Origin: an uncultured Clostridia bacterium
Lineage (GTDB): Bacteria > Bacillota > Clostridia > Oscillospirales > Ruminococcaceae
Direction: 5' to 3'
DNA length: 44,518 nt
Assembly: GCA_947628655.1 (NCBI GenBank)
Contig: CANRAS010000017.1
Location: 1 to 44,518 of the forward strand
Part shown: piece after piece, positions 25,424 to 44,518 of the stretch
Layout: every line of letters begins with the position of its first letter
How positions within the stretch are numbered: the stretch's first letter is position 1
Position numbers and translations under genes: made by a program
The notes under the pieces: model-generated
What the model was told of the DNA's origin: nothing
Databases searched by the model: none
The model's input: only the letters and a program-made list of their open reading frames with translations

Positions 25424-25529
25424 TTGTATTGCCCTCCTAGTTGTTAGAGAATAGTTGTTAGTAGTTAGTTTTAAAGCGCGCGCTGTTTCCCCGCCGCAGG
25501 CGGGGAGGACGCTTTTGTATTTGCCCGCT

Positions 25530-26924
25530 TTATTGCGTATCGTAAACCGTTTCCCAGTCGGTTTTATAATAAAACATCACCTTGCCCGTGACGGCGTTTA
25601 CATATACTACATATTTATAATTATCCGTTGTGTTGTGACATCTGAATTTCCATACGGGAGTTGCTCCGTATTTTCTGTTGCTGTTGCTGTCGCTGTCCTC
25701 TAACGGATACATTCCCGAATAGAGCAGTTCCACTCTTGAAAGCTGTAAATCCATTCCCGCGCCGAAAGACTGCGAGAACACGTTTATAACCTCGTCCAGA
25801 GGAATTACGCTGTCTATTTCGTAGTTTTCTTCTGCGGTATATTCCCCCATGCCCCCAGCCAGCGATTCCAGTTTGTCGCTTTGTAACATTACCGCATTTG
25901 TGGGGAAAACTTTGTAGTCATAGTCGTAGGTTTGCTTTTCGTAATAACTCATACCGAAATCGTCGGGACTTTCATAAGTGTCAAAAATAACGCCCTCATA
26001 TGACGGCGCCATCGTATAGGAAAAACAATATTTTCCGTTGTTTGTATCAAGAACCTTGACTTGATAAACGTCGGGCTGTAAAGAACCGCCCCAACTGTAC
26101 TCGTTTTCGGAAACAATTTTCTTTACAGCGTCGCACCCCTCTTTTATTGACATTTCCTTGTCGGCAAGCTGATAGGAGTCGGAAGAATTGACATCGAGGT
26201 AATTCCTTGTTATTTCAAAAAACTGCGGGGCGAATGTAAGCGCGACGTAATTTTTCGGAAAGTCGGGCGAAAGGCTTCTCATTGCATCATGATTTAATCC
26301 GTTAACGCCTGGACTCCACGAAAGCATATCAAGATAAGCTCTGTCGGTAAGTACCATGAGGTCGCTTATGCCCTGTTCGCCGCTTTTCAGTTGGTCAATA
26401 TAGTCGCAAACGGGGCGTTTTTCATGGTCATCAAGGTCATCTGAATAAAAATAATACAACTCGTCCTTGTCCTCTTCGGAATAAATATCCGAAAATTCTT
26501 TGTTAAAAACTTTGTCGAATTTTTCGTACAGGGTGTTAAAGTCATATTTCGCGGGGGGCGTAAGCGTGAGATTATAAAGCACGTCGGCATCGGGAATTTT
26601 CACCGTGAAATCATCGGTTGTGTGAACGTTTTTGTATTCCGTTGATTTGACGGTGTTAATTTGGTTGTCCAAATCTCCGCGCATTTCGGAAATCTTCTGA
26701 ATTTTTTCATACGGCGTCGGAGGTTCGGCGGGGTCTGTATCGCTTGTTGCGGAGGTTTGTTCGCTTGTCGTTGAGTTGTCGGACGAAACAGCGGAAACCG
26801 CCGAACTCTCGCCCGAAGAACCGTCGCTTGTCAAAGAACTTTCTCCGTCCAAAGAATTGCTCTTTTGACAGCCCGAAAGTATTATAACGGATAAAAGACA
26901 AATAGTTGCAAGTGTTTTTTTCAT
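25530..26924 (-). CDS. Ser/Thr-rich lipoprotein, copy 1
   Basis: 464 residues. A lipoprotein signal (MKKTLATICLLSVIILSGC) places the lipidated Cys at residue 19. A Ser/Thr/Asp-rich linker (about 23-70) leads to a globular extracytoplasmic domain that I do not recognise. It ends with WKFRCHNTTDNYKYVVYVN and TGKVMFYYKTDWETVYDTQ, which recall PepSY/YpeB-like beta-strand segments, but the match is weak. It is a close paralogue of 27678-29048; sequence is near-identical at both ends and more diverged in the middle. It lies 87 bp downstream of a small secreted protein gene, with a strong hairpin (26951-26988) between. Confidence 0.75.
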   Translation of the reverse strand: MKKTLATICLLSVIILSGCQKSNSLDGESSLTSDGSSGESSAVSAVSSDNSTTSEQTSATSDTDPAEPPTPYEKIQKISEMRGDLDNQINTVKSTEYKNVHTTDDFTVKIPDADVLYNLTLTPPAKYDFNTLYEKFDKVFNKEFSDIYSEEDKDELYYFYSDDLDDHEKRPVCDYIDQLKSGEQGISDLMVLTDRAYLDMLSWSPGVNGLNHDAMRSLSPDFPKNYVALTFAPQFFEITRNYLDVNSSDSYQLADKEMSIKEGCDAVKKIVSENEYSWGGSLQPDVYQVKVLDTNNGKYCFSYTMAPSYEGVIFDTYESPDDFGMSYYEKQTYDYDYKVFPTNAVMLQSDKLESLAGGMGEYTAEENYEIDSVIPLDEVINVFSQSFGAGMDLQLSRVELLYSGMYPLEDSDSNSNRKYGATPVWKFRCHNTTDNYKYVVYVNAVTGKVMFYYKTDWETVYDTQ

Positions 26925-26950
26925 AATGATTGTTCTCCTTTTCTAAATTG

Positions 26951-26988
26951 CCGACAGTTACGCGCAGTTAAGCGCGCGTAACTGTCGG
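26951..26988. promoter_or_regulatory. Intercistronic hairpin, copy 1
   Basis: A 14-bp perfect stem (26951-26964 with 26975-26988) and 10-nt loop lie between the secreted-protein gene and the lipoprotein gene. No T-run follows on the minus strand. It may protect the upstream message end or attenuate the lipoprotein. Confidence 0.6.
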
Positions 26989-27011
26989 TATATTGTGTTG
27001 TTTTTTATGGA

Positions 27012-27425
27012 TTATGGGTTGATATTAAATCCAACCGTTCCACTTGCTTGGCAGGAAGTCTCACTTCTGCCAATAAAATGAAATACAACCAGTTTTTCAT
27101 CGTCTATCGGTTCTGGATATTTAACTGACGAGTAACCTGTTGAGGTTATATTATAATCTGTCATTCCGTTAGCGGTCACCATAACTCTTCTGTCATTGCC
27201 GCCTTGAATAGTTGAGCAATAAGTCATATAACCGCCGCTATAATAATTAAGGTCGCGAGTAACGCTAGGTTCAAGTCCGGGTGTTCCGCTTGGTGCGCCG
27301 TTCACGGAGTAGACGTGCCATGACTTATCGGCAATATATGCGCTTGCAGTACCGCATAAAGCCCCAAAAGAAACCACGGCAGCCATTGCCAATGCAGAAA
27401 TCCTTTTGAATGTTTTCTTTACCAT
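27012..27425 (-). CDS. Small secreted protein, copy 1
   Basis: 137 residues. A classical signal peptide (MVKKTFKRISALAMAAVV, cleavage likely after TASA) releases a mature protein of about 108 residues with two Cys (YCSTIQGG and SETSCQASG) that could form one disulfide. Conserved blocks SWHVYSVNGAPSGTPGLEPS and IQGGNDRRVMVTA are shared with the paralogue at 29136-29543, while the segments after GLEPS and after SSVK differ. I do not recognise the family. AGGAGGT lies 8 nt before the ATG. The promoter, leader and 99 bp of ppa sequence upstream are identical to those of copy 2. Confidence 0.75.
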   Translation of the reverse strand: MVKKTFKRISALAMAAVVSFGALCGTASAYIADKSWHVYSVNGAPSGTPGLEPSVTRDLNYYSGGYMTYCSTIQGGNDRRVMVTANGMTDYNITSTGYSSVKYPEPIDDEKLVVFHFIGRSETSCQASGTVGFNINP

Positions 27426-27526
27426 AATAACCTACCTCCTAATAGTTTTTCTGGGAATTACCCCATAATTGTACCGGCAAAAGGAAGATTTAAATAATAT
27501 GTAAAATTCCATTTACCATTATAAAG

Positions 27527-27555
27527 ATTATATCACACTTTCTGTAAATTGTCAA
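27527..27555 (-). promoter_or_regulatory. Promoter of secreted protein copy 1
   Basis: Minus strand TTGACA (27550-27555), 17 nt, TATAAT (27527-27532). It is identical to the promoter of copy 2 and lies partly inside the ppa 3' fossil. Confidence 0.85.
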
Positions 27556-27631
27556 TAGAATTTCCATAAATTTCTATGTAATTCGCGATACATTGTTTGA
27601 TAACTTTTATCGCGTTGTCCCGCCCTTGAAT
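27533..27631 (-). pseudogene. Fossil of the ppa 3' end
   Basis: These 99 bases are identical to 29651-29749, the last 33 codons and stop of ppa, at a constant offset of 2118. Homology stops abruptly at 27631. The fragment marks the right end of a tandem duplication and persists as the upstream region of secreted-protein copy 1. Confidence 0.9.
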
Positions 27632-27677
27632 ATTGTATTTGAGTTAAGGCGCTGACGCACTCAGTATATTGCGACCA

Positions 27678-29048
27678 TTACTGCGTATCGTAAACCGTTT
27701 CCCAGTCGGTTTTATAATAAAATACCACCTTGCCCGTGACGGCGTTTACATATACTACATATTTGAAATTATCCGTTGTGTTGTAACATCTGAATTTCCA
27801 TACGGGAGTTGCGCCGTAATTCGTTCTGCTGTCGTCCAGAGGATACATTCCCGAATAGAGCAGTTCCACTCTTGAAAGCTGTAAATCCATTCCCGCGCCG
27901 AAAGACTGCGAGAACACGTTTACAACCTCGTCCAGAGGAATTACGCTGTCTATTTCGTAGTTTTTTGTTGCGGTATATTCCTTTTTGCCCACAGTCAGCG
28001 ATTCCAGCTTGTCGCTTTGCAGCATAAATGCAATTGTCGGAAAAACATCGTAGTCATAGTCGTAGGTTTTCATTTCGGAATAACTCATACCGAAGTCGTC
28101 GGGGCTTTCATAAGTGTCAAAAATAACGCCCTCATATGACGGCGCCATCGTATAAGAAAAACCGTAATTTCCGTTGTTCAAATCAAGCACCTTGACTTGA
28201 TAAACATCGGGCTGTAAAGAACCGCCCCAACTGTACTCGTTTTCGGAAATGATTTTCTTTACAGCGTCGCACCCCTCTTTTATCGACATTTCTTTGTTAG
28301 AAAGAAAATATTTATCATCTGAATTAACATCGAGGTAATTCTTTGTTACTTCAAAATATTCTGGGGCGAATGTAAGCGAAACGTAATTTTTCGGAAAGTC
28401 GGGGGAAAGACTTCGCATTGTATCATGATTTATTCCGTAAACACCTGTATAATCATAGTGAATATCAAGATAAGCTCTGTCGGTTTCTACCACAAGTTCG
28501 CTGAAACTCTGCTCACCGCTTTTCAGCTTGTCAATATAGTCTTTAACGGGATATTTTACGCTATTATAATAAAAATAATACAGTTCGTCCTTGTCCTCCT
28601 CAGAATATATATCCGAAAATTCCTTGTCAAAAACCCTGTCGAATTTTTCGTACAGGGTGTTAAAGTCATATTCAGCGGGGGTCGTAAGCGTAAGGTTATA
28701 AAGCACATCGGTGTCGGGAATTTTAACCGTGAAATCATCGGTTGTGTGAACGTTTTTGTATTCCGTTGATTTGACGGTGTTTATTTGGTTGTCCAAATCT
28801 CCGCGCAGTTCGGAAATCTTCTGAATTTTTTCATACGGCGCAGGAGGTTCGGCGGGGTCTGTATCGCTTGTTGCGGAGGTTTGTTCGCTTGTCGCGGAGT
28901 TGTCGGACGAAACGGAGGAAACCGCCGAACTCTCGCCCGAAGAACCGTCGCTTGTCAAAGAACTTTCTCCGTCCAAAGAATTGCTCTTTTGACAGCCCGA
29001 AAGTATTATAACGGATAAAAGACAAATAATTGCAAGTGTTTTTTTCAT
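27678..29048 (-). CDS. Ser/Thr-rich lipoprotein, copy 2
   Basis: 456 residues, paralogue of 25530-26924. The same lipobox (LSGC) and Ser/Thr linker are present, then the same unrecognised domain. The N-terminal 120 residues and the last 150 or so are very similar, while the region around residues 160-230 and a short stretch near the C terminus differ, with small indels accounting for the 8-residue length difference. It lies 87 bp downstream of its own secreted-protein partner. Duplicated, co-ordered pairs suggest the two products act together at the cell surface. Confidence 0.75.
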   Translation of the reverse strand: MKKTLAIICLLSVIILSGCQKSNSLDGESSLTSDGSSGESSAVSSVSSDNSATSEQTSATSDTDPAEPPAPYEKIQKISELRGDLDNQINTVKSTEYKNVHTTDDFTVKIPDTDVLYNLTLTTPAEYDFNTLYEKFDRVFDKEFSDIYSEEDKDELYYFYYNSVKYPVKDYIDKLKSGEQSFSELVVETDRAYLDIHYDYTGVYGINHDTMRSLSPDFPKNYVSLTFAPEYFEVTKNYLDVNSDDKYFLSNKEMSIKEGCDAVKKIISENEYSWGGSLQPDVYQVKVLDLNNGNYGFSYTMAPSYEGVIFDTYESPDDFGMSYSEMKTYDYDYDVFPTIAFMLQSDKLESLTVGKKEYTATKNYEIDSVIPLDEVVNVFSQSFGAGMDLQLSRVELLYSGMYPLDDSRTNYGATPVWKFRCYNTTDNFKYVVYVNAVTGKVVFYYKTDWETVYDTQ

Positions 29049-29075
29049 AATGATTGTTCTCCTTTTCTAAATTGC

Positions 29076-29109
29076 CGACGGTTACGCGCAGTTAAGCGCG
29101 TAACTATCG
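29076..29109. promoter_or_regulatory. Intercistronic hairpin, copy 2
   Basis: Counterpart of 26951-26988. CGACGGTTACGCG (29076-29088) pairs with CGCGTAACTATCG (29097-29109) except for one wobble and one mismatch. It is less perfect than copy 1, so the hairpin is kept but not strictly. Confidence 0.5.
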
Positions 29110-29135
29110 ACGTATTGAGTTAATTACTTAATGGA

Positions 29136-29543
29136 TTAAGGGTTTCTGTTGTACCCAATCGTTCCGCTTGCTTGGCAGGAGGTTTCGCTTCTACCAATAA
29201 AATGGAATATAACATCATAGCCTGTTGGATTTGCTTGCTTAACGGACGAATAACCTGTTGTAGATATATAATAATCCGTCATTCCGTCAGCGGTCACCAT
29301 AACTCTTCTGTCATTGCCGCCTTGAATTGATGAGCAATAGGTAATATAACCGCCGCCATAACTAGGGAATGTGCAAGTGTGGCTAGGTTCAAGTCCAGGC
29401 GTTCCGCTTGGCGCGCCATTCACGGAATAGACGTGCCATGAGTCTGCAACAAGATATGCGCTTGCAGAACTGCATAAAGCCCCAAAAGAAACCACGGCAG
29501 CCATTGCCAATGCAGAAATCCTTTTGATTGTTTTCTTTACCAT
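29136..29543 (-). CDS. Small secreted protein, copy 2
   Basis: 135 residues, paralogue of 27012-27425, with the same signal peptide and the same conserved blocks. It has a third Cys in the mature part (HTCTF) that copy 1 lacks. Variable segments are residues 55-65 and the part after SSVK. Function unknown. The promoter overlaps the end of ppa, with the -35 box inside the ppa coding region, so this gene is independently transcribed just behind ppa. AGGAGGT precedes the ATG. Confidence 0.75.
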   Translation of the reverse strand: MVKKTIKRISALAMAAVVSFGALCSSASAYLVADSWHVYSVNGAPSGTPGLEPSHTCTFPSYGGGYITYCSSIQGGNDRRVMVTADGMTDYYISTTGYSSVKQANPTGYDVIFHFIGRSETSCQASGTIGYNRNP

Positions 29544-29644
29544 AATAACCTACCTCCTAATAGTTTTTCTGGGAATTACCCCATAATTGTACCGGCAAAA
29601 GGAAGATTTAAATAATATGTAAAATTCCATTTACCATTATAAAG

Positions 29645-29673
29645 ATTATATCACACTTTCTGTAAATTGTCAA
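29645..29673 (-). promoter_or_regulatory. Promoter of secreted protein copy 2, inside ppa
   Basis: Minus strand TTGACA (29668-29673), 17 nt, TATAAT (29645-29650). The ppa stop codon is at 29651-29653, so the -35 box and spacer are coding sequence of ppa. Confidence 0.85.
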
Positions 29674-30265: not shown

Positions 30266-30275
30266 GAGGGGATTG

Positions 30276-30420
30276 AGTTATTAGAGAATAGTTGTTAGTT
30301 ATTAGTTTTGGTGCGCACTTCGTGCGCGGATTAGATTGTCTTTAAGTCAATGCGTTGACGCGCGGAGGAAAAGAGTTAAAACGCGTTCGCCTGCCGTTTT
30401 TTAAGAAACTTCGACTTTTT
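30276..30420. repeat. Partial intergenic repeat between ppa and metK promoters
   Basis: TTAGAGAATAGTTGTTAG arm, a GTGCGCACTTCGTGCGC hairpin and AGATTGTCTTTAAGTCAATG. There is no closing GACAATCT arm, so this looks like a half element. No gene is seen. Confidence 0.65.
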
Positions 30421-30432
30421 TTACAAAACCCC

Positions 30433-30461
30433 TTGACAAATAAGTCATAATATGCTATACT
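30433..30461 (+). promoter_or_regulatory. metK promoter
   Basis: TTGACA (30433-30438), 17 nt, TATACT (30456-30461). The metK ATG is about 510 nt downstream, so the transcript has a long leader holding the riboswitch. Confidence 0.85.
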
Positions 30462-30550
30462 TTATCCGTACCCGCGAACAGGGGATTATCCCGTCTGTTT
30501 GCGGACAATAACCCAAAAATGTAAAATGCCTTATCAAGAGTGACATTGGC

Positions 30551-30770
30551 GGGTAGTAACTAGAAATTAAAGTTGCGCCACCCATTATAAGAAATGAAAC
30601 TATCCACACGCGCCTATGTGGCGCAACTTTCGTTATTAGTTATTAGTTATTAGTTTTTGTGCGCGCTGCGCGCGCAGATTAGATTGTCTTTGAACCGATA
30701 AGTTTACACACTAGGCAAAAGCCACGTTCAATACTAACTACTAACAACTATTCTCTAGCCACTATCCGCC
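30551..30770. mobile_element. MITE-like element inserted in the riboswitch P2 region
   Basis: Interrupts the S-box between GACATTGG and CGGGACTG. The ends are complementary: GGCGGGTAGT/ACTATCCGCC plus CTAG/CTAG, nearly continuous over 16 positions (two mismatches, one wobble). Inside are the 62-bp mini-element (30569-30630), a GTGCGCGC/GCGCGCGC hairpin, AGATTGTC, and a CTAACTACTAACAACTATTC arm, all shared with other intergenic elements. CGGG occurs on both sides and could be a short target duplication. No transposase is encoded. Confidence 0.75.
30569..30630. repeat. 62-bp mini inverted-repeat element, copy 2
   Basis: The same 11-bp ends as copy 1 at 3508-3569 and the same 62-bp length. It is nested within the riboswitch insertion. 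Confidence 0.8.
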
Positions 30771-30915
30771 CGGGACTGCGCCCTATGATGTCCGGCAACC
30801 TATCGGCGTTCGGTAATGTATTACCTGCTATTCGCCGAAAAGGTGCTACTTCCTGCGGGGAATTTTGTATTGCAAAATTCCGCCGAGAGATAAGGAGTGA
30901 ACGGAAAACATTGCC

Positions 30916-30945
30916 TGCTCGCTCCTTACAGAGCGAGCATTTTGC
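30916..30945 (+). terminator. Riboswitch-controlled terminator before metK
   Basis: TGCTCGCTC (30916-30924) pairs with GAGCGAGCA (30931-30939), loop of 6, followed by TTTT. The T-run is short. Its 5' arm can instead pair with 30891-30900. Confidence 0.7.
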
Positions 30946-30977
30946 GTTAGAAAACCATTTGTGAAAGGAAATGTAAA

Positions 30978-32156
30978 ATGGAAACGAAAAAACTGTTTAC
31001 CTCCGAGAGCGTAACCGAGGGTCACCCCGACAAAATCTGCGACAACGTGTCCGACGCGATATTGGACGCAATTCTCGCACAAGACCCTATGGGGAGAGTT
31101 GCGTGTGAAACTACGACAACTACGGGTATGATAACGGTTATGGGAGAAATCTCCACGACCGCAAATATTGACATTCCCGCGATAGTAAGGAAAACCGTGC
31201 GCGATATTGGCTATACGTCAAGCGAGTTCGGCTTTGACGCGGACACCTGCGCTGTCTATACTATCATCGACAAGCAGTCGCCCGATATTGCAATGGGAGT
31301 TAATAACGCGCTTGAGGGTCGCGAGCAGAACGAGGGCGATACGGGCGCGGGCGACCAAGGAATGATGTTCGGATTTGCCTGTTCGGAAACCCCCGAACTT
31401 ATGCCTATGCCGATAAGCCTTGCGCATAAACTCGCAAAGAAACTTACCGAAGTCCGCAAAAACGGCACTCTGCCTTATCTTCTCCCCGACGGCAAGACGC
31501 AGGTTACTGTTGAATACGACGGTGTAAAGCCCGTGCGCGTTGACACGGTAGTTGTTTCTTCTCAGCACTTAGCGTCGGCAACTCTTGAACAGATACGCGC
31601 GGACGTTATCGAAAAGGTAATCAAAACGACTATCCCCGCCGAACTTTTGGACGAGAACACGAAATATTTCGTAAACCCGACGGGGCGTTTTGTTGTAGGC
31701 GGACCTATGGGCGACAGCGGACTTACGGGGCGCAAGATAATCGTTGATACATACGGCGGATATTCCCGCCACGGCGGCGGAGCGTTTTCGGGAAAAGACC
31801 CGACAAAGGTAGACCGTTCCGCGGCGTATATGGCGCGTTACGTCGCGAAGAATATAGTAGCGGCGGGTCTTGCGGAACGTGCGGAGATACAGCTTGCATA
31901 TGCAATCGGCGTAGCAAATCCCGTATCTGTAATGGTTGACACGTTCGGCACGGGGAAAATTGCCGATAAAAAAATTGCCGAGGCGGTCACAAAGGAATTT
32001 GACCTCCGCCCGTCCGCTATCATCAAAACGCTTGACCTCCGCAAACCGCAGTACAAGCAAGTCGCGGCTTACGGACATATGGGACGTGAGGATTTGAACG
32101 TCGCGTGGGAAAAGACCGACAGAGCGGGGGATTTGAAAAAATATTTGGGAGTCTAG
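30978..32156 (+). CDS. metK: S-adenosylmethionine synthetase
   Basis: 392 residues, full length. It makes SAM from methionine and ATP in the cytosol. Signatures: [19 protein letters not shown] near the N terminus, [15 protein letters not shown], the P-loop-like [19 protein letters not shown], and the C-terminal YGHMGR. A GAAAGGAAATGTAAAATG context gives a good ribosome binding site. It is controlled by the S-box leader just upstream. It is followed by a long repeat-filled spacer, so it is probably monocistronic. Confidence 0.97.
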
Positions 32157-42756: not shown

Positions 42757-44109
42757 CTACTTAATATTGTAAACCGCCTTTAAATGCCGACCGAAAACGC
42801 GCTTGACAAGCGCAACCGCCCCTTTGAAAATCAGCATTCCGAGGAATATCAGGCACACGGTCAGGCACAGGAAACCAAGCGAAAATAACAGCCTTGTGAT
42901 GAAATGATACGGTGCGAAATCAAACATTCCGAGCAGGCACGTTATGCCGATACAGAACACTCCGATAGCCGCACAGAACGCCGCAAGCGAAAGCGCGAAT
43001 ACCACGGGAATAAGCCACGACCACAGCAGAATATCGAGAAATATTTCCCCCAAAAGCCGTGCAAAGTTGACATTCGGCTGAAGTCCCGAAGTGTCAACAA
43101 ACCCGCCGCCGCTTTTCGGTTTCGCTTTCGTGAATTGCGGGGGTATCTCGCCGTGACTGTCGCGGTTCACGTTTTTGCGGTAACTGTCGCTCGGTCGGAA
43201 ATTCTGCTCGTCAGCCTTTTTTCGGAGCGTTTCCTCGACCTTGTTCCAAGCCTTGCCGACTGCCGCTCCCGCCGCGCCGCAAGCCGCGTCAACAGTTCGC
43301 CCTATTCGCTCAAACGTTCCGTTCCCGCCCGCGCCGTTTTGCGAATTGTCCGCGCTGTTGTTGAAACCGTCAGCACCGTTCGCCGAACCGCCCGTTGTAC
43401 CGTCCGCTCCGTTGCTTGTGAAATTTCCCGCGCTGTTTGGGAAACTGCCCGCGTTGTTTGCAAAACCGCCTGCGCCGTTTGCCGAACCGTCCGCGCTGTT
43501 GTTCGCTAAATTTTCCGCACCGCCAACGCCGTTGGCGTTCGGGTAAATCTCCTCCGAAAGATGTACGGGTGTGTACTCACGCACGGTATCGCTGTTCGCG
43601 AAATCCCCCGCGCTGTTTGGGAAACTGCCCGCGTTGTTTGTAAAACCGCCTGCGCCGTTTGCCGAACCGTCCGTGCTGTTGTTTGTTAAATTCTCCGCAC
43701 CGCCAACGCCGTTGGCGTTCGGGTAAATCTCCTCCGAAAGATGTACGGGTGTGTACTCCCGCACGGTATCGCTGTTCGCGAAATCCCCCGCGCCGTTCTC
43801 CGACCCGTCCGCAAGCGACGGGTCAGCGGGTACGGAACGCCCCGGCTTTCGCAGGCTGACTTTTTTGTGCATAACGTCCCGCGCGACGATACTGTTTATA
43901 GCCTCGCTTTTTAAGTCAAGGCAACTGCGCGCTATTTCCGAAATACTGCCGAGTTCGCGGCAGGTTTCGCTTTCGGGAACTCCTCGGCGTTCGCTCTCCG
44001 CGAAATGCTCCTCAAGGTCGGCGAGGAGTTCCTCGCTGTCCTCAATTCCCAATCTTTCAAGCTCCACATTGAGCTGAGTGAAAAATTCCTGTTTGTTTTC
44101 AGCTATCAT
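42757..44109 (-). CDS. DUF1700-like membrane protein with a 60-residue tandem repeat
   Basis: 450 residues. The N-terminal 75 or so residues (NKQEFFTQLNVELERLG, DLEEHFAESERRGVPE) match DUF1700 proteins. A long low-complexity Asn/Gly/Ala/Ser region (about 100-275) contains two nearly identical 60-residue units sharing FANSDTVREYTPVHLSEEI. At about 345-435 are hydrophobic helices (ILLWSWLIPVVFALSLAAF, IGVFCIGITCLLGMF, LLFSLGFLCLTVCLIFLGML). DUF1700 proteins are often paired with DUF4097 proteins; here that partner is the next gene downstream. AAGGTG lies 6 nt before the ATG at 44109, which I prefer to a GTG three codons upstream. Confidence 0.75.
   Translation of the reverse strand: MIAENKQEFFTQLNVELERLGIEDSEELLADLEEHFAESERRGVPESETCRELGSISEIARSCLDLKSEAINSIVARDVMHKKVSLRKPGRSVPADPSLADGSENGAGDFANSDTVREYTPVHLSEEIYPNANGVGGAENLTNNSTDGSANGAGGFTNNAGSFPNSAGDFANSDTVREYTPVHLSEEIYPNANGVGGAENLANNSADGSANGAGGFANNAGSFPNSAGNFTSNGADGTTGGSANGADGFNNSADNSQNGAGGNGTFERIGRTVDAACGAAGAAVGKAWNKVEETLRKKADEQNFRPSDSYRKNVNRDSHGEIPPQFTKAKPKSGGGFVDTSGLQPNVNFARLLGEIFLDILLWSWLIPVVFALSLAAFCAAIGVFCIGITCLLGMFDFAPYHFITRLLFSLGFLCLTVCLIFLGMLIFKGAVALVKRVFGRHLKAVYNIK
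43431..43790 (-). repeat. 180-bp coding tandem repeat, two units
   Basis: Units 43431-43610 and 43611-43790 differ at only a few positions and keep the frame (60 codons). Both encode the Asn/Gly-rich segment plus the HLSEEIYPNANG block. Copy-number change would lengthen or shorten the linker without a frameshift. Confidence 0.85.
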
Positions 44110-44185: not shown

Positions 44186-44518
44186 TTTTCCCGCCTACGG
44201 CAGGGGTAACGCGGTTAAACTTGTTTTTGCACTTCCCGCCCACGGCGGGAAATCGCGGGTAAACTTGTTTTTTGCATTTCCCCGCCCACGGCGGGGGAAC
44301 GCGGGTAAATTTGCTTTTGCCTTTCCTCGTCCACGGCGGGGGGAACGCGGTTAAACTTGCTTTTGCATTTCCCCGCCCACGGCGGGAAAACGCGGATAAA
44401 CTTGCTTTTGCCTTTCCCCGCCCACGGCGGGGGAACGCAGGTAAACTTGCTTTTGCATTTCCCCGCCCACGGCGGGAAAACGCGGATAAACTTGCTTTTG
44501 CCTTTCCCCGCCCACGGC
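44186..44518. repeat. 45-bp tandem hairpin array, at least eight units, runs off the window
   Basis: CCCGCCCACGGCGGG-like hairpins with TAAACTTGCTTTTGC linkers recur at 45-46 bp; ACGG cores are at 44197, 44242, 44288, 44333, 44379, 44424, 44469 and 44514. The last units form a 90-bp higher-order repeat: 44371-44428 equals 44461-44518 exactly. The array lies upstream of the DUF1700 gene and continues past the end of the window. 44110-44185 holds only a TTTAGTAGTTAGCG arm. Confidence 0.9.

Follow-up and report, generated by a model that had tools for sequence, protein, structure and literature searches.

The metK locus and its leader

The window, i.e., the whole stretch of 44,518 nucleotides that was analyzed, is one entire contig (G000:C17) of a draft genome of 2.09 Mb in 34 contigs, derived from an uncultured Clostridia bacterium. 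Positions 30978-32156 of its forward strand encode a protein of 392 amino acids, which we take to be the SAM synthetase MetK on the basis of the original prediction and of general knowledge of the family; the main copies of this gene in the genus are 84-96% identical. A sigma-70-type promoter-like site (TTGACA, 17 nt, TATACT; 11 of 12 consensus positions) precedes the leader on the same strand (30433-30461). One such site per region is the level expected by chance, with shuffled sequences giving 1.1, and promoter-like sequence is visible at the same leader position in relatives.

Between this site and metK, all of the S-box landmarks named in the original prediction could be read directly on the forward strand, i.e., P1, P2, GGCAACC, P3, J3/4, P4, terminator and antiterminator. 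The P1 5' strand CTTATC (30530-30535) and the J1/2 sequence AAGAGT extend to position 30541 and are followed by the P2 5' strand GACATT (30542-30547), which was assigned by direct reading, folding and comparison with the genus. Next come the GGCGG 5' side of an additional P2 arm and the first base of its loop (30548-30553), at the position occupied by an arm hairpin in relatives, and, beyond the insert described below, the last loop base and the 3' side of the arm, CCGCC (30765-30770), identified from the sequence and the fold. P2a (GGG/CCC) with its loop L2 (30772-30783) and the P2 3' strand GATGTC (30787-30792, assigned by comparison with the genus) then lead into J2/3, P3 and J3/4 (30793-30849). 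This last stretch runs from CGGCAACC to AGGTGCTAC, with GGCAACC from 30794 and GGTGCTAC at 30842-30849, after which TTCC is found. P4 (30855-30885) was placed by folding and by a match of the 3' half of the aptamer to the Rfam SAM-I model RF00162. The P1 3' strand GATAAG (30889-30894) overlaps the antiterminator 5' strand AAGGAGTGA (30892-30900), whose partner TCGCTCCTT (30919-30927) is contained in the intrinsic terminator stem (30916-30939) detected by a terminator scan. The antiterminator thus comprises 9 bp and overlaps P1; antiterminators of at least 6 bp were obtained for all 40 readable leaders of the genus, as the best pairing in a scan run without a control. The conserved SAM-I core (P1, J1/2, GGCAACC, J3/4, P4 and J4/1) is present, and this genome departs from the genus at four of the 66 core columns compared.

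A second, divergent metK-like gene (48% identity) is located on another contig (G000:C2:19215-20357), and the genome scan found no SAM-I aptamer near it or elsewhere. Within the window, a stretch of approximately 2.1 kb upstream of the metK leader occurs twice in direct order (25521-29672; spacing 2118-2148 nt, ungapped pieces 84-94% identical), and the open reading frames in it look secreted by eye. Positions 44203-44518, up to the contig end, hold an array with a 45-nt period, adjoining a 180-nt direct repeat pair at 43410-43769.

A dispersed repeat separates the P2 strands of the aptamer

The metK SAM-I aptamer is split between its P2 strands by approximately 211 nt of a dispersed intergenic repeat (30554-30764, forward strand), the total between the strands being approximately 220 nt. 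These limits were derived from a repeat search and a comparison of the ends, and they refine an original prediction that was correct in its central point: a dispersed repeat breaks up P2 of the sole SAM-I aptamer identified in the genome. Searching the genome with positions 30540-30790 yielded at least 66 matches, the query's own place included, with 40 of 272 candidates scored. The other matches listed were partial (77-100% identical over 24-121 nt), and the insert proved to be modular, its 5' hairpin, central and end modules matching different places in the genome. No second full copy was found among the 40 of 272 candidates scored, the best other match being 82% identical over approximately 114 nt.

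The two ends of the insert, TAGTAACTAG... and ...CTAGCCACTA, match a common end like TAGTAGCTAGAGAATAG as imperfect inverted repeats, with TAGTAACTAGAAA.. at one terminus corresponding to TAGTGGCTAGAGA.. on the other strand. Allowing up to two mismatches, 69 end-like matches were counted in the window and 28 loci, a figure that has no chance estimate and counts overlapping loci twice. The element is short and apparently non-coding, with no open reading frame of 80 aa or more inside it according to the open reading frame list, and many dispersed copies exist, all of those listed being partial apart from the one in the metK leader. It can safely be described as a dispersed element with inverted-repeat ends. 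The original term "MITE-like" agrees with its dispersal and with its ends, but no consistent target-site duplication was seen among 18 listed end pairs, some of them nested, TA being present at both ends of this copy; on these sequence features, the insert is likely to be a MITE. Using the element as query, five of eight related genomes gave matches at E 0.001, mostly to the end module (23 matches in G041). A partial copy of the same repeat family, with an end sequence, is also located at 30275-30343, just upstream of the metK promoter-like site.

The window comes from a repeat-rich draft in 34 contigs, the one genome of its species available for comparison, so that misassembly of a repeat into the metK leader has to be considered. 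Such an error is unlikely because the two halves of the aptamer supply matching strands for P1, P2 and the arm, and because no second full copy of the insert was present among the scored candidates. The same kind of insertion was moreover found at the same place in other genomes, as described below, and we regard an artefact as very improbable.

A three-way junction as the probable replacement of the P2 kink-turn in the genus

Among tertiary motifs, the kink-turn (k-turn) of SAM-I is a textbook example. The original prediction raised the concern that the usual GA pair near it reads GC once the insert is precisely removed. We compared the leader with those of the genus sample of 43 genomes, this one included, of which 41 had a metK match at E 0.001, one of these (G023) only weakly; readable metK leaders were obtained from 40, with none from G023, G047 and G055. 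The canonical k-turn tandem, i.e., GA on both strands beside a four-pair P2, was found in none of the 40 leaders. Watson-Crick or G·U pairs occupy both tandem positions in 28, and eight have GA on the 5' strand only. The lack of k-turn G·A pairs is thus a clade variant and not a defect of this copy alone, and the argument from the GC reading fails. In P2 itself, pairs 1-4 are formed in 40/40 leaders, pair 5 in 31 and pair 6 in 32. Compensatory alternatives were GC or AT at pair 2 (31 and 9 leaders), CG or TA at pair 3 (39 and 1) and TA or AT at pair 4 (39 and 1). The single A-T at pair 4 is that of the present genome, and this compensated change indicates that P2 was kept paired in its lineage, before or after the insertion.

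In all 40 readable leaders, additional sequence lies at the same place, after the P2 5' strand and before P2a (e.g., GGCTTC-A-GGCG-GAAA-CGCC in G021). When folded alone, 37 of the 40 arms were enclosed by an outer helix of their own, in a comparison without shuffles; the exceptions were G053, G054 and G056. In the window, the arm stem is formed by GGCGG (30548-30552) and CCGCC (30766-30770), both host sequence. The complementary segments had been attributed to the element and held to extend P2, a view that we revise: since this stem belongs to an arm that is present in 40/40 leaders, the element sits in the arm loop. Removal of 30554-30762 leaves the hairpin GGCGG-GTAT-CCGCC and a block of 43 nt between CTTATCAAGAG and CGGCAACC, compared with a genus mode of 42 nt (15 of 40 leaders); congeners and the joined flanks together suggest how the empty site would have looked. 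Judged by sequence, a three-way junction composed of P2, P2a with L2 and, on the 5' strand, the side arm appears to take the place of the P2 k-turn in all readable genus members. By the same comparison the arm predates the element: it is a clade-specific feature of P2 that had replaced the k-turn pairs, and the element inserted into its loop.

The three-way junction presumably takes over the bend of the k-turn. Passages on TPP riboswitches describe k-junctions in which a third helix is placed at the same point of a k-turn and the tandem G·A pairs are kept (PMC4005666, PMC10573300). The genus differs from these, since Watson-Crick or G·U pairs take both places of the tandem in 28 of 40 leaders. 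A k-junction combines a third helix on the non-bulged strand with tandem G·A pairs; in the genus, the arm is present in 40/40 leaders and GA/GA in 0/40. A SAM-I riboswitch whose k-turn was replaced by a pk-turn is described, in the available part of another report, as still binding SAM (PMC4316175), which suggests that a different bend can be tolerated.

An exact pattern for the small-arm P2 returned 19 stretches from the genome collection, all of them on contigs that match genomes already in the genus sample, so that this form was not found elsewhere by exact pattern. We also inspected 87 SAM-I loci outside the genus, comprising the best-scoring loci together with chosen long, low-scoring or same-family ones, and hence not a random sample. 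The P2 block was of standard size (33 nt or less) in 63 of these and longer in 15, and nine that could not be parsed look standard by eye. All 15 long loci come from a single further genus of this family; 44 of its 71 genomes gave a match. A similar arm is present in 15 of the 44 SAM-I aptamers of this second genus (L152, L155, L157, L160, L161 and L196-L205), whose P2 forms a three-way junction, with 6-7 P2 pairs showing compensatory changes and P2a following directly with no bulge; the aptamers of the 29 congeners look standard.

Family models, profiles and conserved columns

With the gathering score of 44.4 bits as threshold, RF00162 did not match anywhere in the window; it gave no match in the whole genome at E 0.001 and none in 30450-31000 up to E = 10. 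The contiguous, high-scoring SAM-I match that had been named as evidence against an insertion was thus not found. At a loose threshold, the only Rfam matches in 30450-31000 were four chance ones of microRNA type. The 3' half of the aptamer alone matched RF00162 with 23.9 bits (E 0.0021). Across the genus, 27 of 43 genomes exceeded the gathering cut-off and 37 matched at E 0.001; this survey and those of the outside loci and the second genus were run with stricter filters, at which weak matches are lost.

A covariance model built from 28 small-arm leaders of the genus (R1) does not align across this insert, its best match (52.4 bits) combining the 3' half with a spurious P1 that lies within the repeat. 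Applied to ten relatives with long or moderate arms, R1 spanned six, with blocks of 59-146 nt; the other four (L036, L038, L039 and L041; 167-403 nt) were aligned in part only. A sequence profile of the same 28 small-arm leaders matched the leader over its whole length with 73.4 bits once the element was removed, a score below those of 34 of the 39 other leaders, and with 61.6 + 4.0 bits when it was left unjoined. For leaders outside the training set, the same profile gave 102.5 bits for G046, which has a small arm, 74.7-77.4 bits over the whole of G053, G007 and G058, and 63.5-77.6 bits for the main piece of leaders split by a long arm.

Comparison of the 66 core columns in the 40 leaders showed that this genome departs at four columns common to at least 95% of the others. 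Two of these together make up the compensated P2 pair, and the other two lie in loop L2, where the usual ACTGGT of the genus reads ACTGCG, at columns common to 39/39 and 38/39 of the other leaders. Elsewhere, 37 leaders show 0-2 departures; G012 and G015 have eight each, caused by mis-cuts at J3/4, and the present genome otherwise has the most. In SAM-I, L2 contacts J3/4 in a pseudoknot, so that the altered loop may weaken SAM binding.

The insertion might accordingly have weakened or broken the aptamer, leaving it to decay and metK to be more or less constitutive, or damped by hairpins of the element itself. Consistent with this are the two L2 changes at conserved columns and the low profile score even with the element removed, as well as a weak terminator-like hairpin inside the insert (30610-30624); 30380-31000 contains two terminator-like sites, this one and the metK terminator, compared with 0.7 in shuffled sequences. 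On the other side, the remaining departures in the 66 columns are accounted for by one compensated P2 pair, both the antiterminator and the terminator are intact, and columns common to 95% of the others are unchanged in relatives whose arms reach 377 nt. We consider a decaying switch unlikely, albeit the most serious of the alternatives. The aptamer may be partially decayed, given the L2 changes, the low profile score and a fold that is uncertain; kept function is the better guess from sequence and modelling.

Predicted folding around the insert

The minimum-energy fold of 30530-30900 retains P1, P2, the arm, P2a, P3 and P4. Mean pairing probabilities with the insert were 0.99 for P1, 0.93 for P2, 0.93 for P2a and 0.99 for P3; with the element removed, they were 0.99, 0.94, 0.70 and 0.99, respectively. 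The earlier suggestion that the RNA folds the element away as an extra arm is therefore matched by the predicted fold, which puts the element out as an arm, except that the stem of this arm is not the element's own. When the insert was replaced by dinucleotide-preserving shuffles, 10 of 60 allowed P2 to pair as well or better (mean 0.59), and the self-containment of the insert is for this reason suggestive only.

In relatives with long arms, the contrast with shuffled inserts was mostly stronger: shuffles as high as the real sequence for P2 numbered 0/24 in G002, G054 and G057, 0/8 in G005, 1/24 in G010 and G056, and 3/24 in G058. The real P2 pairing was low in G002 (0.22) and in G009 (0.03), where 5/12 shuffles were as high. 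G053 and G007, for which no shuffles were run, folded poorly (P2 0.33 and 0.22, P3 0.09 and 0.08, respectively).

The arm is a recurrent site of expansion

P2 blocks in the genus range from 40 to 403 nt, with 11 of the 40 longer than 58 nt. On a metK tree of the 40 sequences and three outgroup rows, the long and short labels change four times (3-4 in bootstrap replicates), the well supported branches forcing only two changes. The long-arm groups are the present genome alone; G054 and G056; G053, G007, G005, G002 and G010; and G058, G009 and G057. In G005, G002 and G010, the arm contains a palindromic dispersed repeat of approximately 109 nt that is unrelated to the element in the window. Including arm copies and opposite-strand matches, it gave 18, 9 and 10 matches in these genomes, respectively; it also occurs in G007 (22 matches) and in G053 (at least 43, with 40 of 79 candidates scored). 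G007, a sister of G005, G002 and G010, has this repeat elsewhere, yet its own block is 65 nt. The presence of unrelated dispersed repeats in the arms of this genome and of the G005 group indicates that two lineages took in repeats at this site. The arms of G009 and G057 and of G054 and G056 were likewise considered as dispersed repeats, which found no support: except for four 25-nt matches elsewhere in G057, these sequences match only within the arms.

By sequence comparison, then, the arm appears to be a site enlarged about four times by different sequences. The original prediction had spoken of a rare case; within the genus this is not supported, as the same arm was enlarged about four times, and a dispersed repeat was responsible in one further lineage as well. 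The underlying observation was right, and it is more general than claimed.

Recurrent enlargement could also mean that a long arm is kept for a function of its own, e.g., to slow transcription so that the RNA can fold, as a protein-binding site, or as a second sensor. The number of expansions, with long arms in 11/40 leaders, would fit this, as would the real P2 pairing above nearly all shuffles in G002, G005, G010, G054, G056 and G057 (0-1 of 8-24). The repeats that occupy the arm in this genome and in the G005 group are unrelated to each other, however, and 29 of 40 leaders have no long arm. Self-folding inserts are also explained by plain tolerance, G009 shows no contrast with its shuffles (5/12) and G058 a weaker one (3/24). 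We thus hold a selected function of the long arm to be improbable.

A broader proposal, which we advance tentatively, is that SAM-I in one Clostridia family gave up the kink-turn for a three-way junction whose arm is a docking site where mobile repeats land harmlessly, independently at least twice. If true, the docking arm would be a natural insertion experiment across species.

Proposed mechanism and comparison with known systems

We favor, as the probable explanation of the locus, an S-box attenuator of metK that has a three-way junction instead of the k-turn, a repeat of approximately 211 nt in the permissive loop of the arm, and retained switching. The element is most likely held out of the way as an arm, with SAM sensing preserved. 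The loop of the side arm would have been a permissive site in which the dispersed repeat landed in this genome. The transcript of the insert would fold largely on itself, allowing P2, P2a, P3, P4 and P1 still to form around it. With SAM bound, P1 would keep part of the AAGGAGUGA strand, the terminator would form and metK would be off; without SAM, the 9-bp antiterminator would form and metK would be on. The arm is presumably tolerated because it leaves the SAM pocket alone; SAM is the expected ligand, and switching should survive the insert.

The leader shares with SAM-I (RF00162) P1, J1/2, P2, GGCAACC, P3, GGTGCTA-TTCCTGC, P4, GATAAG and an antiterminator/terminator upstream of metK. It differs in the side arm that the genus has instead of the canonical k-turn G·A tandem (absent in 40/40) and, in this genome, in the 211-nt repeat, with which RF00162 misses it. 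The passages of a comparative study that bear on this describe long nonconserved insertions at set sites of riboswitches, typically stem-loops sparing the core, and low-scoring matches where insertions occupy unusual places (PMC2258182). Here, the insertions of two lineages are dispersed repeats, and those passages show no case in SAM-I P2.

The closest precedents concern other RNAs. Rickettsia palindromic elements occur inside tmRNA and RNase P RNA genes, perhaps neutrally, according to the portion of that work available (PMC2229807). The present case is similar in that a dispersed palindromic repeat lies inside a structured RNA; it involves other bacteria and another element, the host is a ligand-sensing switch, and the receiving arm is already present in relatives. 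A pneumococcal BOX element is reported, in an extract, between two T-box riboswitches, with regulation apparently kept by RNA-seq (PMC3049150). It too is a MITE-like repeat within a riboswitch leader, but it lies between two aptamers and not inside one. The relevant section of a review on MITEs goes as far as raising the possibility that they have riboswitch-like effects (PMC10969869). The spermidine variant class of SAM-I also includes a metK example, and its description makes no mention of the k-turn (PMC10853860). Among the papers listed from the open-licence literature searched, we found neither a repeat inside a SAM-I aptamer nor a natural three-way-junction P2 in SAM-I.

A riboswitch may accordingly survive the insertion of a repeat and be hidden by it, the standard Rfam search finding no SAM-I in this genome. 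The SAM-I aptamers of two genera appear to do without the k-turn G·A pairs, which makes a direct test of the bend requirements possible, and the series of P2 blocks from 40 to 403 nt at one site amounts to a length scan for aptamer folding during transcription.

Two further features were observed near metK leaders of relatives. In G021, a T-box leader (102.7 bits) is located on the opposite strand close to the metK leader (L032:3025-3279). In the leaders of G013 and G006 (L035 and L037), the interval from the terminator to the metK start contains a run of TAGTTGTTAG-type repeat.
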